Shown here piece by piece: positions 13,790-22,914 of a stretch of DNA of 64,000 nucleotides. The stretch's first letter is position 1, and each line of letters begins with the position of its first letter. The DNA is from an uncultured SAR86 cluster bacterium (GTDB lineage: Bacteria > Pseudomonadota > Gammaproteobacteria > Magnimaribacterales > D2472). The stretch covers positions 1-64,000 of the forward strand of contig CACEDS010000003.1 of assembly GCA_902558395.1 (NCBI GenBank), in the 5' to 3' direction. The notes below the pieces were generated by a model. That model searched no databases and had not been told where the DNA came from. It was given only the letters and a program-made list of their open reading frames with translations. The position numbers and the translations under genes are program-made.

Positions 13790-15358
13790 ATGACTGTAAA
13801 GCTATCATCTAAAACCAAACATATAGATACTATTTTGGTTCTAGATTTTGGTTCTCAATATACTCAATTAATTGCTCGCAGGGTCAGAGAGAGTTATGTT
13901 TATTCAGAAATTCTTCCATGGGATATCGATGAAGAAAAAATTAAATTAATTAATCCTAAAGGTATTATTTTATCTGGAGGCCCCGATTCAGTTACCAATA
14001 GTTATACACCAAGAGTTCCACAAATAGTTTTTGATCTAAATATACCTATTTTAGGTATCTGTTATGGAATGCAGACCCTTGCTGAGCAATTAGGAGGACA
14101 GGTTATATCATCAGACCAAAAAGAATTTGGATATGCAGAACTTCAAGTTACAGCAGACTGTGTTTTATTTTCTAATTTAGGAAAAACTCTTAATGTATGG
14201 ATGAGTCATGGTGATCAAGTTCAAGACTTGCCAGACAATTTTGACTTAGTTGCAGCTACTGCAACTGCACCAATAGCAGCAATGCAACATGCAAGTAAAC
14301 CAATCTATGCGCTTCAATTTCATCCGGAAGTAACTCATACAGAGGACGGAAAAACTGTTTTAGATAATTTTATTTTTAAAGCATGCAATGCTAATAAAGA
14401 TTGGAAAATGGATGATTTAATTGGTCAAAGAATAAAAGAAATTAAAGACCAAGTTCAAAATAATAAAGTTCTTCTAGGTCTCTCTGGTGGTGTAGACTCA
14501 TCAGTCACCGCAGCTCTTTTAAATAAGGCAATTGGCAATAAATTGGTATGTGTTTTTGTTGATAACGGTCTTCTGAGAAAAGGTGAAGCAGAAGAGGTTA
14601 TGAATACTTTTAAGGAAAATATGAACTTAAATGTCATTAAATCTGACAGTGAAGAAGTATTCTTGAGACATCTTAAGGGTGTTGAAGACCCTGAACAAAA
14701 AAGAAAAATCATAGGTAGAACTTTTATTGACGTTTTTGATGCTGAGGCTACAAAATTAAAAGATATACATTATTTAGCACAGGGCACAATATATCCCGAT
14801 GTTATTGAATCCTCAGGATCAGAATCAAAAGAGGCAAGAGTTATTAAATCACATCATAATGTTGGCGGTCTTCCTGAAGAAATGAAGATGGAGCTTCTTG
14901 AGCCATTGAGAGATCTTTTTAAAGATGAGGTAAGAAGAATGGGTGTTGAACTTGGCCTTGCTCCTGAAATGCTTAACAGGCACCCCTTTCCTGGACCTGG
15001 ATTAGGAGTAAGAATTCTTGGAGATATAACCAAAGCAAAGACCACTGTTTTAAAAGAAGCAGATCATATTTTTATAGAAGAATTAATTAAAGCTGATCTT
15101 TATAAAACAGTTAGCCAAGCTTTTGCAGTCTATCTGCCAATTAAATCAGTGGGTGTTGTTGGAGATGAGAGAAGGTATGCTGAAGTCATTGGTCTAAGAG
15201 CAGTAGAAACTGTTGATTTTATGACAGCAAGATGGGCGCATTTACCCTATGAATTTTTAGAGCATGTCTCCAACAGAATAGTAAATGAAATAGAAGAAGT
15301 TAGTAGAGTGGTTTATGACATATCAAGCAAACCACCAGCAACTATTGAGTGGGAGTAG
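13790..15358 (+). CDS. guaA: GMP synthase (glutamine-hydrolysing)
   Basis: A 522-residue enzyme aminating XMP to GMP. The N-terminal class I glutamine amidotransferase has its nucleophile in GICYGMQ (Cys91) and the His/Glu in [13 protein letters not shown]. The ATP-pyrophosphatase domain has the [10 protein letters not shown]-loop. The C-terminal dimerisation domain ends with PPATIEWE, as in nearly all GuaA proteins. It is second in the guaBA operon, and the 190 nt downstream separate it from the glycan island. Confidence 0.97.
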
Positions 15359-15448
15359 CAGTGTCAGCAAATATGTGTTGACATGAATTCATCCTATAGC
15401 ACAAATGTGACACACTATTTTAAACAAAATTTTATATTGTTCACGTGA

Positions 15449-15454
15449 TATAAT
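15449..15454 (+). promoter_or_regulatory. Candidate -10 box (TATAAT) for the glycan island
   Basis: In the 190-nt gap after guaA, a TATAAT follows an 8-bp palindrome TCACGTGA (15441-15448) directly. It would give a leader of about 90 nt before the NeuB-like gene. There is no convincing -35 at 17 nt. No Rho-independent terminator for guaBA is evident in the gap. Confidence 0.3.
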
Positions 15455-15548
15455 TTAATAATTTTAGAATTTATATGAAGCTTTGTGTCTGATTTGAAGA
15501 CCGTTCGATTATTAAAATGAAAAATTAAATTTATTGAGGAAATGGGTT

Positions 15549-16256
15549 ATGACAAAAGAAGACATCAAAATAATGTTTATTGCTGAGATTGGCCTAAACC
15601 ATAACGGGAATTTTGGACTTATATTTGAACTTATAAAACAAGCTGCATGGTCAGGAGCTGATGTGGCAAAATTTCAACTTGGATGGAGATCTGGTAAAAA
15701 CGAAATAAACTCTTTTACAGAAGAAGATATAAAGCACATTATTAAATGCTGTGAAAATTTTGAAATCCAACCAATGTTTTCAATTTTTACTCAAGACGCC
15801 CTAGAAATTGCTAAGAAATTCTCATTTAATTATTTCAAAATTGCATCAAGAACAGTAAAAGATGATCTTCAATTATGCAAAGAGATTCTTGATCAAGATA
15901 AAGAAACTTTTATTTCTTTAGGTATGTGGGATTCTAAAAAACTTCCTTTTGATAATAATGACAATATTAAATATCTATGGTGTAAATCAAACTATCCATC
16001 ATATCCATGGGATTTAACAGAACTTCCAAAAGATTTTTCTAATTCTATCTACTATGGTTTAAGTGACCACTCTGTTGGTATAGACATACCGTTGATGGCG
16101 ATTTCTAGAGGCGCTCAAGTTATCGAAAAACATTTTACCTTGGATAAATCAGATACAACAATAAGAGACCATGCTTTGTCGGCAACTCCTGAAGAATTTT
16201 TTCAAATGGTACAAATTGGATCGCAAATAAGAAAAAACTTAAACATGGGAGTTTAG
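15549..16256 (+). CDS. N-acetylneuraminate-synthase (NeuB)-family protein, short form
   Basis: NeuB enzymes condense phosphoenolpyruvate with an aminosugar to make sialic, legionaminic or pseudaminic acids. The barrel motifs are present: [12 protein letters not shown] near the start, AKFQL, and [32 protein letters not shown] near the end. The protein is about 235 residues, whereas standard NeuB is about 340, because the C-terminal SAF (antifreeze-like) domain is absent. ATG 15549 is chosen over the track's TTG 15534 because GAGG at 15536-15539 then serves as ribosome site. Substrate and even catalytic activity are uncertain. Confidence 0.78.
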
Positions 16257-16261
16257 GCTTC

Positions 16262-16972
16262 ATGAAAAAAATAGTCTTGATTGGGAATGATACGCTTCAT
16301 AGAAGATTTTTAATAAACTCTTTATTAGATAATAATTACGAATTAAAAGGATGTATATTTGAAACTAAAAGCGTAAAGCCTAGCTTTGAAGTTGGGCCTG
16401 TTTTTGAAGAAAAGGAAAAAATATTTCTTCAAGAAGAATTTTCTAAACATACTAGATTAGACTTAGACAGATTGAATTGTTGGTACTATGAAAGTGCAAA
16501 CTCTGAGCAATGCATTAATAAAATTGAGGAACTAAATCCAGACCTATGCATAGTTAGCGGTGCTGGTTTAATATATGAAAAAACTATTCAAGCTTTCCCA
16601 GATGGTCTGATTAATATACATTTAGGAAATGCTGTTGAGTACAGAGGACTTGATACTAATCTATGGGCAATTTATCACAATGACTTTGAAAATATTGGAG
16701 TAACTATACATTTTGTTGATAATGAGCTGGATACAGGAGATGTAATAGCTTATAAAAAAGTAAACATAAGCAATAATACTAAAATACATCAATTGAGATT
16801 TTTTGAGATGCATTTAGCTAGCAAGTTACTACAAACAGCATTAGATGATTATTTTAAAGGAAATTTAGTTGCAAAAAAACAAGAAAAGAAGGGCAGATAC
16901 TATTCTTTTATGCCGAAAGATCTTAAGACGCTAGTAGCCAAAAAATTTGATAATAGAATAAAAAATATATGA
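16262..16972 (+). CDS. Formyltransferase-fold protein (methionyl-tRNA formyltransferase-like)
   Basis: A 236-residue protein of the folate-dependent formyltransferase fold. The segment LINIHLGNAVEYRGLDTNLWAIYHNDFENIGVTIHFVDNELDTGDVI follows the Fmt/PurN pattern in which N-x-H and a later D are catalytic. It lacks the Fmt C-terminal tRNA-binding domain, so a small acceptor such as an amino-sugar nucleotide is likelier than tRNA. It sits 5 nt after the NeuB-like gene and overlaps the deacetylase gene by 4 nt (ATGA), so it is surely in the same operon. Confidence 0.75.
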   Translation: MKKIVLIGNDTLHRRFLINSLLDNNYELKGCIFETKSVKPSFEVGPVFEEKEKIFLQEEFSKHTRLDLDRLNCWYYESANSEQCINKIEELNPDLCIVSGAGLIYEKTIQAFPDGLINIHLGNAVEYRGLDTNLWAIYHNDFENIGVTIHFVDNELDTGDVIAYKKVNISNNTKIHQLRFFEMHLASKLLQTALDDYFKGNLVAKKQEKKGRYYSFMPKDLKTLVAKKFDNRIKNI

Positions 16973-17934
16973 TAAGAAATAACACCAACTTTTTAACTTA
17001 TAATTCTGAAGATCTTAAATCTCATTTAACTATTCTTTTATATCATGGTGTTACAGCATCAACCTCAATCGGTATTGAAAATTATTCAGGAAAGCACATC
17101 AATGTAGATGAATTTTATCGTCAGATGTCATACATCAAAGAAAATTGTAATATTTTATCAATGAATGAAATTGTGGAAATTAAAAGAAAAAATGAAAAGT
17201 GGCCTGCGAACGCTGTTGCAGTTACTTTTGACGATGGTTTTAAAAATAACTATGAATGCGCAGCACCAATTCTTAATAAATTAAATATACCAGCAATCTT
17301 TTATATATGTTCAGGAATGATTGATTCAAAGAAAATGTTTTGGGTTGATAAAATAGAAGATTGTATTAACCGTACAAAGAAGAATGCAATTGAAATTCTC
17401 TTAGATAACTCTTTAAAATTTAGTTTGAAATCTAATGAAGAAAAGATTGAAGCTTTAGCTAAAATTAAGAGTTTTTGTAAAATCGCAGACGTTAAAATCA
17501 AAGAAAGAGTCTTAAAAGATCTTGAATTAATTACTGAAGTTCAGCCCGCAGCCTCTAGTGCAAAGAATTATCAAATGATGAGTTGGGATGACTTGAAATC
17601 CTTGAATGATAATCAATTATTTACAATTGGTGGACATACCTTATATCACGACATTATGTCTGCACATATTAATGAAGAAAATATGTTTAAAGATATAGAA
17701 CTATCCATAGGATTATTGGAATTTAACCTTAATGAAAAAATAATACACTTTTCATATCCCGAAGGTCAAAAACATCACTACAATCAAAAAGTAATACGTA
17801 AACTTAAAAATTCTAAGATAGTTTGTAGTCCATCTGCAATTCATGGAATTAACGATAATGAGACTGACCTTTTTAACCTTTTTAGAATCATGCCTGGTTT
17901 CATGGGGACTCCATTTCCTTTTGATAAAATTTAG
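16969..17934 (+). CDS. Polysaccharide deacetylase (NodB-homology domain)
   Basis: A 321-residue carbohydrate esterase family 4-type protein that removes N- or O-acyl groups from glycans. The NodB motifs are present: VTFDDGFKNNY near residue 83 (catalytic Asp and metal Asp), GGHTLYHDIMS near 220 (metal His residues) and FSYPEGQ. No signal peptide is seen, so it may act in the cytoplasm or on a precursor. The start overlaps the previous stop in ATGA. In this operon it could trim or remodel an acylamino sugar; that is inference. Confidence 0.85.
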   Translation: MIRNNTNFLTYNSEDLKSHLTILLYHGVTASTSIGIENYSGKHINVDEFYRQMSYIKENCNILSMNEIVEIKRKNEKWPANAVAVTFDDGFKNNYECAAPILNKLNIPAIFYICSGMIDSKKMFWVDKIEDCINRTKKNAIEILLDNSLKFSLKSNEEKIEALAKIKSFCKIADVKIKERVLKDLELITEVQPAASSAKNYQMMSWDDLKSLNDNQLFTIGGHTLYHDIMSAHINEENMFKDIELSIGLLEFNLNEKIIHFSYPEGQKHHYNQKVIRKLKNSKIVCSPSAIHGINDNETDLFNLFRIMPGFMGTPFPFDKI

Positions 17935-18189
17935 CCTTTCATGAAGGTTCTGTATAACCTAAAAAACATGAGACTTTTTAAGTAAAAAAAGTATTTATCT
18001 GTAACATATGCATCTAACATCCATCAAATTAAATTTCTATTATGACAAGAGGATAGGAGGAGTTTACCAAGACATATATTCATATTTATGACATGCTATA
18101 ATTATGAAAATTTCGTTTTTTCTAATGGTGTTTGAGAGTGTTTTATGTTTCTAATTTTGAGATTACGCAACAAGTGAGTAGAAATAAAT
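17935..18189 (+). other. 255-nt gap in the glycan island
   Basis: This is the longest gap in the window. It holds the extended -10 at 18094-18102 and a 27-codon ORF from ATG 18008 (MHLTSIKLNFYYDKRIGGVYQDIYSYL, then TGA) with a glycosyltransferase-4-like feel (RIGGVYQDI). The ORF is too short for confidence; it may be a gene remnant or chance. No hairpin plus T-run terminator is seen. Confidence 0.4.
18094..18102 (+). promoter_or_regulatory. Extended -10 promoter candidate (TGCTATAAT) before the methyltransferase-UbiA operon
   Basis: The nine-base element is identical to the guaB extended -10. It lies 88 nt before the methyltransferase ATG, in the 255-nt gap after the deacetylase gene, and so probably starts a separate transcript for the second half of the island. 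The call comes from consensus match only. Confidence 0.45.
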
Positions 18190-19059
18190 ATGTGTAAAAA
18201 TTCCTGTTGGATATGTAATGGTTCCAACATAAAAAAAGTTAAACAAGGCATTGAAAAAGAAATATCGCCAAACGATTTTAATATCACCGATGATAGATAT
18301 GGAACAACATTAGCAATATATAGATGTCTTGATTGTAAGTTTGAGTTTTGTCCAGAAACTATTGATTTAACTAATATGTACGAAAATATGGAAGATGATA
18401 GTTATCTAGAAACATCACAATCTAGGTCAATTCAAGCAAAAAAAATAGCAAAATATTGTCATAAATTTATTAAAAAAGATTCTAAGATACTTGATATTGG
18501 TTGTGGTTCTGGCTTGTTAGTGAAAGAGTTTGAATTACTAAATTATGACTCATATGGCTTGGAGCCATCAAATTTTTTAGCTGACAAAGGCATTGAAAAT
18601 AATTTAAAAATATATCAAGGAACTTTAGATGATAAAAATTATAGTAATGAATTTGATTTTATATCTTTGGTAGATGTTATTGAGCATGTTCAAAATCCCC
18701 TTGATTTATTAGTAAAGATCAATAGAGCTCTTCATGAGGATGGCTCTTTTCTTGTAATAACGCCTCGCAGAGATTCATTTTTTAGATTGATTCTTGGGTT
18801 TAAATGGTGGCACTACAGAATTGCACATGTTGGATATTTTAGTAAGACAAATTTATTACAAATTATGAAAAATGCTGGCTTTGAAATTATTGAATATAAA
18901 TATGCAACTTGGTTTTTGCCTCTTGATTATATTCTCAATAGACTAATAAAGTATCTGCCATTTATTAAATTCAGGTTTAACTTCAAAAAGGAAATATCAT
19001 TACCAATAAACCTTTTTGATTCAAGCATGATTATAGCTAAAAAAGTTAAAAATTTATGA
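18190..19059 (+). CDS. Class I SAM-dependent methyltransferase with N-terminal zinc-ribbon-like Cys pairs
   Basis: A 289-residue protein. The N-terminus has C-x2-C (CWIC, residues 6-9) and a second pair (CLDCKFEFC) typical of the small zinc-binding lead domain found in some sugar and lipid methyltransferases. The SAM motif I is ILDIGCGSGLL near residue 100, followed by FDFISLVDVIEHVQNP (motif IV region), as in UbiG-like Methyltransf_23 proteins. Its stop overlaps the next gene by 4 nt, linking it to the UbiA-family enzyme. The substrate is probably a sugar or lipid intermediate; it is not identifiable. Confidence 0.8.
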   Translation: MCKNSCWICNGSNIKKVKQGIEKEISPNDFNITDDRYGTTLAIYRCLDCKFEFCPETIDLTNMYENMEDDSYLETSQSRSIQAKKIAKYCHKFIKKDSKILDIGCGSGLLVKEFELLNYDSYGLEPSNFLADKGIENNLKIYQGTLDDKNYSNEFDFISLVDVIEHVQNPLDLLVKINRALHEDGSFLVITPRRDSFFRLILGFKWWHYRIAHVGYFSKTNLLQIMKNAGFEIIEYKYATWFLPLDYILNRLIKYLPFIKFRFNFKKEISLPINLFDSSMIIAKKVKNL

Positions 19060-19988
19060 AAGGTTACATAGCAATATTAAGATTTGATCATTGGATTAAA
19101 AATATATTTGTTTTACCTGGTGCATTGATAGCATTGATTATTTTTAATAAAGATTTAAGCTCAAATATATTATTAAGCATTGCAGCAGCAACTCTAGCTG
19201 CAAGCTTCATTGCCTCAGCTAATTATGCAATAAATGAGTGGCTTGATAGATATGCTGATGCACTTCATCCGGATAAGCAAAATAGACCAGCAGTAAAGGG
19301 CAATATCTCCTCTTTTGGAGTTTATATATTGTATTTATTGATGGCTTTGGTTGGTTTGTTAATAGGTTTTTTTATTAATGAATATGTTCTTATTTCTTTG
19401 ATATGCTTTTTGATTTCTGGACTTGTTTATAATGTTGAGCCTATTCGAGCCAAAGACTTAATTTATTTTGATGTAATAATTGAATCAGTAAATAATCCGA
19501 TAAGAATGTTTATAGGTTGGTTTGCGGTTGTGGAAAACGCATTAATACCCCTAAGTCTTATCATTTTTTATTGGTTTTTGGGAGCGTTTATGATGAATGC
19601 AAAGCGCTTGTCTGAATGGAAAAAGTTTAGCTCTAAAGAGGACAGGCTAATGTATAGACCATCTCTAGGCAACTATGATGATCAGATGTTAACTGTAATG
19701 TGTTTTGTTTATGCAATATTATCATCAAGCAGTTTGGCATTATTTTCTGCAAGATATAAGTTTGAATTAATCTTATGGCTACCCTTTTTTATATTAGTTT
19801 TAGCATGGTATTTCAAAAGTGCATTAGGTAATTCAGGTCTTACTGAAAATCCTGAAAAACTTTTGACAAGCAAATGGTTGGTGTTATTGCTGATTTTTAA
19901 TGCGATTATATTTTTCATACTTTTAAGTGTAGACATTGATTTGCTCGATAAAGTTTTTTACGAATCTCTTATATTTAAAATAATTTAA
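19056..19988 (+). CDS. UbiA-family prenyltransferase, decaprenyl-phosphate phosphoribosyltransferase-like
   Basis: A 310-residue polytopic membrane enzyme with about eight to nine helices. The first Asp-rich motif is NYAINEWLDRYADALHPDKQNRP. The form with 'D..ADxxHPxKxxRP' and the start RFDHWIKNIFVLPG resemble DPPR synthase (decaprenyl-phosphate 5-phosphoribosyltransferase, PRPP as donor) more than quinone or heme prenyltransferases. Such enzymes make the lipid-linked phosphoribose used in arabinan or ribofuranosyl glycan synthesis. The neighbouring HAD phosphatase and SMR-like protein fit that pathway. The assignment to DPPR synthase is by pattern, not proven. Confidence 0.78.
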   Translation: MKGYIAILRFDHWIKNIFVLPGALIALIIFNKDLSSNILLSIAAATLAASFIASANYAINEWLDRYADALHPDKQNRPAVKGNISSFGVYILYLLMALVGLLIGFFINEYVLISLICFLISGLVYNVEPIRAKDLIYFDVIIESVNNPIRMFIGWFAVVENALIPLSLIIFYWFLGAFMMNAKRLSEWKKFSSKEDRLMYRPSLGNYDDQMLTVMCFVYAILSSSSLALFSARYKFELILWLPFFILVLAWYFKSALGNSGLTENPEKLLTSKWLVLLLIFNAIIFFILLSVDIDLLDKVFYESLIFKII

Positions 19989-20011
19989 TTCAAGATATTT
20001 AGATTCTTTTG

Positions 20012-20704
20012 ATGAACATTAAAAAATTAAATGCAATCGAAAAAGAAAATATTTATATTTTTGACTTTGATGGAACACTTTTTAGATGTGACTTACTTAT
20101 TTTGTATGTCATATATCATTTTTTTATTATCGGTGACAAAATCTTTTTGATTAGATCTCTAATTAACATTCGCATGAAAACATTATCCTCTAAAAGAAAA
20201 GAAATATTTTTATTTCTCTCAAAAAAATATGAAATGAAAGATTGTTTCGATAATTTCGCAGAAAATTGTCTTTTAAAATACTTCATGAGAAAAAGACTTT
20301 TTAAATTTTTAAAAGATGTTAATAATAAAAATGAGACAATTTTTATTATGACTGCTAATTACAGATATCTAGTAAAATCTTTTTTATCTAAAAACAATAT
20401 CATTGAAAAAAATAGGCTAGAGATTTTTGGTACAGAATTACCAAAACACAATGACCGTCTCCACGAAAATATTTTAAAAGGTAAACTAAAAGCAGATAAA
20501 TTTTTGGATATTCTCAAAGAAAAAAATAAAGAATTGAAAAATATAACCATTCATAATTTTTTTGATAGTTATGATGATAGGTTCTTATGCAAATATGCAA
20601 ATTATAATATTTTATTTAGCTTATCATTTGTTAAAAGACTCTTTTTTAAAAAGGATTTTAATTTAATCAGCTACAATGACTATCTTAAAGTTAAACTTTT
20701 ATGA
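20012..20704 (+). CDS. HAD-superfamily hydrolase (putative lipid-phosphosugar phosphatase)
   Basis: A 230-residue protein with HAD motif I at IYIFDFDGTLFRCD near the N-terminus. Motif II is plausible at IFIMTANYR and motif III/IV near FFDSYDDRFL. Family members are phosphatases, and the length and helical cap resemble SerB/PSPase-like HADs. The TTG of the track (20009) immediately precedes the ATG used here. Its place between the UbiA-like and SMR-like genes suggests it removes the 5-phosphate from polyprenyl-phospho-ribose-5-phosphate; that is inference from context. Confidence 0.75.
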   Translation: MNIKKLNAIEKENIYIFDFDGTLFRCDLLILYVIYHFFIIGDKIFLIRSLINIRMKTLSSKRKEIFLFLSKKYEMKDCFDNFAENCLLKYFMRKRLFKFLKDVNNKNETIFIMTANYRYLVKSFLSKNNIIEKNRLEIFGTELPKHNDRLHENILKGKLKADKFLDILKEKNKELKNITIHNFFDSYDDRFLCKYANYNILFSLSFVKRLFFKKDFNLISYNDYLKVKLL

Positions 20705-21054
20705 TTGTATATATATATTTTATTTTGGGGGCATTTTTTAATGCTCTTGCAGCATATTTAATAAAAATATCCTTTCACAATGCTCAATCTATCTTTGACA
20801 TAATTTTGAAAGGCCCATCTAGAGAATTAGGATTAATATTACTCGCCTTAACAAGTTTTTTTTCTGCATTTATTTTCTATGGCTTAGTTTTATCAAAAAC
20901 TAATTTAAATATTGCACAACCAGTTTTTAATGCACTATCTATGCTTTTTGTGATAGTCATCTCAATATTATTATTAAATGAGCCATTTTCATTTAAATAT
21001 TTTATTGGAATAATTCTTATAATAATTGGTATATTTTTTTTGAGTCAATCATAG
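20701..21054 (+). CDS. Small multidrug-resistance (SMR/EmrE-like) membrane protein, possible lipid-sugar flippase subunit
   Basis: A 117-residue protein with four hydrophobic helices in the DMT/SMR pattern (FILGAFFNALAAYLIKISF, then LALTSFFSAFIFYGLVLSKTNLNIAQPVFNALSMLFVIVISILLLNE). The ArnE/ArnF flippase subunits of aminoarabinose-lipid transport share this fold and size. A drug-efflux role is also possible. It overlaps the HAD gene by 4 nt and abuts the next ORF exactly, placing it inside the glycolipid operon. Confidence 0.72.
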   Translation: MIVYIYFILGAFFNALAAYLIKISFHNAQSIFDIILKGPSRELGLILLALTSFFSAFIFYGLVLSKTNLNIAQPVFNALSMLFVIVISILLLNEPFSFKYFIGIILIIIGIFFLSQS

Positions 21055-22845
21055 ATGCCTATTAAGAATAATTTTTTAAGAGTTGTAAGCTGCTTTTTTA
21101 TAATTCAGTTTTTCATTCTTATATTATTGAGGTTTCGTGGCAGTTATCATAGTTTTTATATTAATGCATATAATTTCTTTTTAGATAGCTCATATTTTAA
21201 AAATGATATGTTTTTGAATAATTCTATTCTCTTTGATTCTACAATCTACTATAAATTGTTATCTCTCTTGGGCGTAAAGCTTGAGACTGATCTAATACTT
21301 TTTTCTATTTATCTAGTCTTAATTTTTTTTAATATATATTTTTTTATAAAGATAATAAAAAAATTTTATAATCCAGATAATATCTGGACTATATTGATTT
21401 ATATATTACCAGCTTTAGTTTTAGGGAATTTTCTTGCCCCAAATGCTGAGTCTGCCTTAATTTACTCTCATACTGGAACAGCAACTCAAATCGCGTTCAC
21501 TTTCATCTTAGCCACGATTCTCACAACGATTCAGCATAATTGGAAATTGGCTTTTTTCTTTGCGTTTATTTCAATTTTATTAGCAGCCAAACACGCTGCT
21601 TTCCCAATTTTTGTAAGTTTTACATATTTTTTAATTATTCAATTTGGTTATAAACGCCTCATTAAAATTTATATTTTTTTAAGCGCAGTTATTATTTTAA
21701 TAGGACACATATTTTTTTCATTCATGCCAGAAAAATATATACAAGAAAAAATTCAAATCATAGATTTCATAATAATGCGAAATCAACATGAGGATGCTTT
21801 TTATTTGCAATCATTACGGGGAAAAGTTAAATTATTTTTGGGTTTCGTATGTTTATTTGTCACGATTAAATTCATCACAAATCAAAATTATAAATATTAT
21901 TTAGTAACTGTATTTTATATGAGTTTAGCGGCAATAATTTTTGGTGCTATATATACATCTTATTTATATAAATACTACCCAGAGCCTTACATTGTTTTGT
22001 TAAGTACAATTAAGGCCATGTTTTTAATGCAGTTTTTTGCATGTATTGGAGCTTCAAAATTTATTTTAGATAGCTCTATAAATTATTTTTCTAAAAGTTT
22101 TTTTATATTAGTACTTTTTTTTGGCAGCTTTGGAGGAAAAACTGGAGAAAATCTAGCGTTAGCATTTTTAATTATTGGTCTAATATTAAATTTTACATTA
22201 ACTCTAAAAATTATAAAAAAAATATCAACAAAGTTTATTAAGTATTTCAATAAATTTAATATACATCTACCAAGGGATTCTAAAATTCTTTTAATTGTTC
22301 TTTCAATTACGATTCCTTTAACATCTTACACTTTAAATAATAAATTAAATTCATATTCAAAATATCATGATGGTCGATACACTATTGTGAATACTAGCAA
22401 TGAATTTTTAAATGAAGTAACAAAAATACAAAATTGTAAAGATTTTAATTTTTTACCAGTTGAAGAAGAACATTTCTTTGAAAATATAAATACTAATCAA
22501 TTTCAAAATATTACAAATCCATTTTTAATATATTTTTCTAAAAAATCTAATTATTTAGGTGACCCTGCTCATTTATATTTAGATTTAGAAAAACAAAATA
22601 TTTATCTTCAAAGAAAAAATAATATTATGAATATTTTTGATGATGATACATCTTATCCAACCAAACAACTATCATGGTCTTTTATCGAGAAAGATAGAGT
22701 TATTATTATTGCTCCAAAGAGCGTTTTACCTTCTTATCTTAATAAAAAAATAAAATTACTTTCAAATAATTTTATTTATATTTTTTCAGGAGGTATCGAA
22801 CACCGCTCTGAATTTATAAAAAATTGTTCTTTTTATAATTCATAA
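21055..22845 (+). CDS. Large polytopic membrane protein, possible GT-C-type glycosyltransferase
   Basis: A 596-residue protein with about twelve hydrophobic helices in the first 420 residues and a C-terminal soluble domain of about 170 residues rich in Asn, Lys and aromatics. I do not recognise a named family. A first helix, then a long polar loop (GSYHSFYINAYNFFLDSSYF), many helices and a final extracytoplasmic domain are the general plan of GT-C glycosyltransferases that use polyprenyl-phosphate sugars. Its ATG follows the SMR-like stop with no gap. The catalytic Asp cannot be assigned confidently, so function is inferred from layout only. Confidence 0.6.
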   Translation: MPIKNNFLRVVSCFFIIQFFILILLRFRGSYHSFYINAYNFFLDSSYFKNDMFLNNSILFDSTIYYKLLSLLGVKLETDLILFSIYLVLIFFNIYFFIKIIKKFYNPDNIWTILIYILPALVLGNFLAPNAESALIYSHTGTATQIAFTFILATILTTIQHNWKLAFFFAFISILLAAKHAAFPIFVSFTYFLIIQFGYKRLIKIYIFLSAVIILIGHIFFSFMPEKYIQEKIQIIDFIIMRNQHEDAFYLQSLRGKVKLFLGFVCLFVTIKFITNQNYKYYLVTVFYMSLAAIIFGAIYTSYLYKYYPEPYIVLLSTIKAMFLMQFFACIGASKFILDSSINYFSKSFFILVLFFGSFGGKTGENLALAFLIIGLILNFTLTLKIIKKISTKFIKYFNKFNIHLPRDSKILLIVLSITIPLTSYTLNNKLNSYSKYHDGRYTIVNTSNEFLNEVTKIQNCKDFNFLPVEEEHFFENINTNQFQNITNPFLIYFSKKSNYLGDPAHLYLDLEKQNIYLQRKNNIMNIFDDDTSYPTKQLSWSFIEKDRVIIIAPKSVLPSYLNKKIKLLSNNFIYIFSGGIEHRSEFIKNCSFYNS

Positions 22846-22914
22846 TTTTTTAATATTTATTTTAGATTAAACAAAAATCTATATTAAAATCATAAATAGA
22901 GTTAATTTAAAAAT

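Follow-up and report, generated by a model that had tools for sequence, protein, structure and literature searches.

A putative lipid-linked pentofuranose module in the guaA-apt interval of a SAR86 cluster bacterium

We analyzed a 64,000-nucleotide stretch of DNA (the window) from an uncultured SAR86 cluster bacterium and detected a module of five open reading frames at 18190-22845, all on the plus strand, encoding a methyltransferase, a UbiA-fold protein, a HAD phosphatase, a small four-helix protein and a 596-aa membrane protein (Table 1). The successive junctions are a 4-base overlap, a 20-base gap, a 4-base overlap and a direct abutment, and the coordinates thus bear out the original prediction that the five genes overlap or abut. 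The island has a G+C content of 25.6%, compared with 32.7% for the window, and ranks near the lowest of 594 stretches of the same size. Promoter-like matches in the module region were in no excess over shuffled sequences.

Table 1. Positions of the island features, with the basis of each assignment
Feature	Position	Strand	Basis
Variable guaA-apt interval holding the module	15359..22914		Relatives' DNA homology ends at the guaA end, 15358
Upstream glycan genes of the same insertion: NeuB-like without SAF, formyltransferase, polysaccharide deacetylase	15534..17934	+	Pfam/NCBIfam; DNA unmatched past guaA in relatives
Class I SAM methyltransferase (Methyltransf_23), N-terminal Cys pairs	18190..19059	+	Pfam PF13489, E=9.7e-26
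Predicted UbiA-fold polyprenyl-phosphate phosphoribosyltransferase (PPPRS/DPPR-synthase type), NEWxD branch	19056..19988	+	NF008977, 8j8j/8j8k, PRPP-site residues, Foldseek
HAD-IB phosphatase, proposed to remove the 5-phosphate from lipid-linked phosphoribose	20009..20704	+	PF12710, TIGR01490, motifs
Four-helix EamA/SMR-type protein, 117 aa, ArnE-like flippase candidate	20701..21054	+	EamA and ArnE models; hydrophobicity
Orphan membrane protein with C-terminal soluble domain, candidate GT-C pentofuranosyltransferase	21055..22845	+	Hydrophobic segments; position

In 57 of 61 relatives' genomes the query DNA was matched as far as the end of guaA (stop codon at 15358), past which there were few matches, of chance length. 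In the congeners whose guaA-apt interval was read (G008, G009, G013, G014), the cargo differs and comprises glyoxalase-like, Schlafen/GIY-YIG, DUF4910 with formyltransferase, and MORN genes. Since the homology of the relatives stops at the guaA stop codon and the congeners hold other cargo in the same space, the guaA-apt interval is a hotspot for insertions in the genus and the module is island cargo. The UbiA gene and the 596-aa gene were not found in any of the 150 relatives; a weak UbiA match in one genome (G095) was rejected as a lysine-rich sequence full of stops rather than a gene.

The glycan genes directly upstream in the same insertion possibly belong to the same functional island as the module. 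The NeuB-like protein (15534-16256; 240 aa) lacks the C-terminal SAF domain, and its gene adjoins those for the formyltransferase and the polysaccharide deacetylase. A complete NeuB that includes SAF, together with a formyltransferase, was observed at another site, near the TonB-receptor gene in L032 (6548-8835).

The first gene of the module had been described as a zinc-ribbon methyltransferase. The methyltransferase assignment stood at the PF13489 match; the zinc ribbon is suggested by the Cys pairs, and no zinc-ribbon family matched the protein. The predictions of a HAD phosphatase adjoining the UbiA gene and of an EmrE/ArnE-sized four-helix flippase candidate were both upheld. The HAD protein matches PF12710 above the cut-off (34.9 bits) and TIGR01490 below it (31 bits), and carries motif I DFDGT and an acidic motif IV. 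The 117-aa protein has four hydrophobic segments, matches EamA above the cut-off (38.1 bits), and has ArnE as its best NCBIfam model, below the cut-off.

The UbiA protein contains the motif ADALHPDKQNRP (HPDKQNRP), from which the original prediction placed it in the PRPP-using decaprenyl-phosphate phosphoribosyltransferase branch. The suggested profile comparison of DPPR synthase with UbiA/COX10-type models favored this placement: the best NCBIfam model was NF008977, decaprenyl-phosphate phosphoribosyltransferase (89 bits), ahead of the HAD-UbiA fusion PRK08238 (68 bits), CyoE (32) and UbiA (26), with a weaker BchG match as well. Pfam UbiA was above the cut-off and the NCBIfam DPPR-synthase scores were below their curated cut-offs, suggesting a divergent member of the DPPR-synthase type. 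A phmmer search of the PDB with the single sequence returned the Rv3806c entries 8j8j/8j8k as sole matches, and in a search with a profile built from 16 relatives 8j8j scored 142 bits, an archaeal UbiA homolog 67 and a 4-hydroxybenzoate octaprenyltransferase 30. The AlphaFold model, made from two sequences, was of moderate quality (pLDDT 67), with 8j8j as the top Foldseek match, slightly ahead of the archaeal UbiA homolog.

Eleven PRPP/Mg contact residues have been defined in the Rv3806c structure (PMC10994848), and nine of them are retained in the UbiA protein (R22, K28, Y70, N73, D77, K87, R90, Y138 and K143). The two changed contacts, Q135 to G and Y157 to N, are typical of the NEWxD branch described below; D74 of Rv3806c, which is not a PRPP/Mg contact, is replaced by E. 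The two other UbiA-family proteins of the genome lack K28, Y70 and K87. The phylogenetic tree placed the UbiA protein among the PRPP enzymes, split from the quinone and heme prenyltransferases with 99/98 support, and the grouping with the latter, named beforehand as a refutation, was not seen. Conservation of sequence and active site make the prediction of a PRPP-using polyprenyl-phosphate phosphoribosyltransferase well supported.

Within the PRPP enzymes, the UbiA protein groups with 12 relatives at 36-44% identity, in which NE replaces the ND of the NDxxD motif. This NEWxD branch is separate from the DprE-associated enzymes and Rv3806c, with support of 93/92 in the final tree, which replaced an earlier tree (95/98) containing the non-gene G095 sequence. 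The NDxxD enzymes of three loci (L042, L044, L047) adjoin DprE1 and DprE2 genes, while none of the NEWxD enzymes in this sample do. The branch extends over Proteobacteria, a deltaproteobacterial MAG and a Clostridia plasmid, and a search of viral contigs and phages with the UbiA protein gave no match.

The gene-order survey of the NEWxD relatives detected a separate HAD gene adjacent to UbiA in seven of the 12 (L007, L040, L048, L050, L051, L053, L054) and a HAD-containing fusion upstream of it in one (L049). GtrA-family genes, encoding small flippase-type proteins, lie beside six of the 12 (L038, L048, L049, L050, L053, L054; Rhizobium, Rhodobacter, Paracoccus and G224), and mutually related, GT-C-sized orphan membrane proteins adjoin UbiA in L038 and L050. 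Distant bacteria therefore share the arrangement of a PRPP-type UbiA, a HAD protein and a small flippase, in some cases joined by a large membrane protein, and this recurrence speaks against the genes lying together in the window by chance.

Two plasmid loci carry further features. The Rhodobacter sp. CZR27 plasmid (L049, 5275-7932) encodes a protein of 885 aa that combines a HAD domain resembling that of PRK08238 with a weak, degenerate UbiA-like stretch; its C-terminal part is related to the L050 membrane protein, and the NEWxD UbiA and GtrA genes lie directly downstream. In the 9 kb plasmid p9146 of Paracoccus aestuarii (L050), the membrane protein, NEWxD UbiA, HAD and GtrA genes make up a large share of the content.

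Kelly et al. 2024 described a three-component pentofuranosylation system, and we consider it likely that the module belongs to this type and was acquired horizontally. The UbiA-fold enzyme would transfer ribose-5-phosphate in the cytoplasm from PRPP to polyprenyl phosphate, probably undecaprenyl phosphate, and the HAD phosphatase would then take the 5-phosphate off the lipid-linked ribose. The polyprenyl-phosphate-ribofuranose would be flipped over the inner membrane by the ArnE-like four-helix protein, and the 596-aa membrane protein may move the ribofuranose onto some envelope glycan. We infer the dephosphorylation, flipping and transfer steps from protein family, gene order and precedent.

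The last of these steps depends on the 596-aa protein, for which hydrophobicity gave 11 segments and a manual topology assignment allowed 13; in the latter the first segment is followed by a loop of 49 residues, and the C-terminal domain has 169 residues. No significant Pfam or NCBIfam family match was detected even at E<=10, and no homologs were found in the 150 relatives, in 203 genomes from the order, in a sample of 369 genomes from the class and one of 399 from the phylum, or in plasmids or viral contigs; nor did it resemble the GT-C-sized neighbors of the same-branch UbiA proteins. With no relatives there was no alignment. The AlphaFold model, made from the single sequence, reached a pLDDT of 43 and was discarded along with its Foldseek matches, none of which was meaningful. 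The earlier description of a GT-C-sized membrane protein holds for size, segments and position, while GT-C similarity itself found no sequence match and no usable model. Length, hydrophobic segments and position fit the GT-C architecture and make the protein a GT-C candidate.

A bolder reading, which we offer tentatively and regard as somewhat unlikely, is that the 596-aa orphan is the first member of a new family of GT-C ribofuranosyltransferases and that the NEWxD branch is a functionally distinct PRPP enzyme, with a different acceptor lipid or altered ribose handling. It is unlikely that the 596-aa protein instead has some other membrane role, polymerase-like, flippase-like or different, with an enzyme encoded elsewhere drawing on the lipid-linked ribose. 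The lack of detected GT-C homology and the poor fold model are compatible with such a role, but the segments, the loop and the C-terminal soluble domain fit GT-C, the gene abuts that of the flippase candidate, and GT-C-sized orphan membrane proteins adjoin UbiA in some relatives of the same branch.

The ribofuranosyl decoration in the proposed pathway depends on the lack of epimerization. The 93%-complete genome gave no match to PF01565 (FAD_binding_4), the domain of DprE1, whereas 13 of 14 control genomes did; for DprE1, this agrees with the original prediction that missing dprE genes make a ribofuranosyl decoration possible. With DprE1 missing, ribofuranose is the simplest product, and we infer it rather than arabinofuranose. 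The first two steps could be right and the lipid-linked ribose still be turned to xylofuranose or arabinofuranose before transfer, by an epimerase encoded elsewhere. A single SDR epimerase suffices for the switch from Ribf to Xylf in Citrobacter O2 (PMC11127046), but the island has no epimerase gene and the 93%-complete genome no FAD_binding_4 protein, hence no DprE1, making this course quite improbable. No match to a Wzy_C-type O-antigen ligase or polymerase was detected in the 93%-complete genome, suggesting that the acceptor may be other than a WaaL-ligated O antigen. That the UbiA protein acts as a conventional prenyltransferase on quinones, heme or other aromatic compounds and is encoded amid glycan genes by chance, as its superfamily fold and weaker BchG, CyoE and UbiA matches would allow, is highly improbable given its PRPP-specific residues and phylogeny, the adjacent HAD and flippase genes, and the far better Pfam scores of the two other UbiA-family proteins in the genome for such roles.

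The original prediction held that a Gram-negative pathway of this form would be new; it has already been shown experimentally in Citrobacter youngae O1/O2 and reported as widespread (Kelly et al. 2024, PMC11127046). There, lipid-linked ribofuranose is produced from PRPP by ORF15, a fusion of HAD and UbiA, ORF14 is an EmrE/ArnE-like four-helix protein and predicted flippase, ORF12 is a GT-C enzyme (GT136) for periplasmic sugar transfer, and the pathway without an epimerase yields ribofuranose (O1). Compared by family and description, the window shares the UbiA-fold PPPRS, the HAD phosphatase, the EmrE/ArnE-like flippase, the large multi-helix protein and the lack of an epimerase. It differs in its separate HAD gene, in the branch of its UbiA protein (NEWxD, against NDxxD there), in the additional methyltransferase and in its 596-aa protein, which is set beside GT136 by description only and has no Pfam/NCBIfam match.

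The mycobacterial pathway (Rv3806c, Rv3807c, DprE1/E2, Rv3789, Emb/Aft) likewise starts with a PRPP-dependent enzyme of the UbiA fold, the PRPP/Mg residues of which are conserved, whereas the present locus is of Gram-negative type, lacks DprE1 and has a HAD protein instead of a Rv3807c-type phosphatase. As cited in PMC11127046, a PPPRS-based pathway was proposed earlier for the group IV pilin D-arabinofuranosylation of Pseudomonas aeruginosa (PSPA7_6246 and neighbors); it is likewise Gram-negative and proceeds through a lipid-linked pentofuranose, but with arabinose as the proposed product and pilin as the proposed acceptor, while DprE1 is lacking here. The GtrA/GtrB/GtrC O-antigen glucosylation also combines a lipid-linked donor, a small flippase and a GT-C transferase outside the cytoplasm; its donor is made from UDP-sugar by a GtrB-type glycosyltransferase, in contrast to the UbiA-fold PRPP enzyme here. 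The pathway type is thus already known, and what is modestly new is the NEWxD synthase branch, the orphan 596-aa protein and the cargo site in the guaA-apt hotspot.

Taken together, the proposed reading adds a streamlined, probably marine bacterium, whose genome measures about 1.3 Mb, to the carriers of the lipid-linked pentofuranose pathway. It also draws attention to an uncharacterised PRPP-using UbiA branch that is carried on plasmids and in islands in company with HAD and GtrA genes. If the reading is true, a ribose-decorated envelope glycan and possibly a new GT-C family would be part of the strain-variable surface chemistry.
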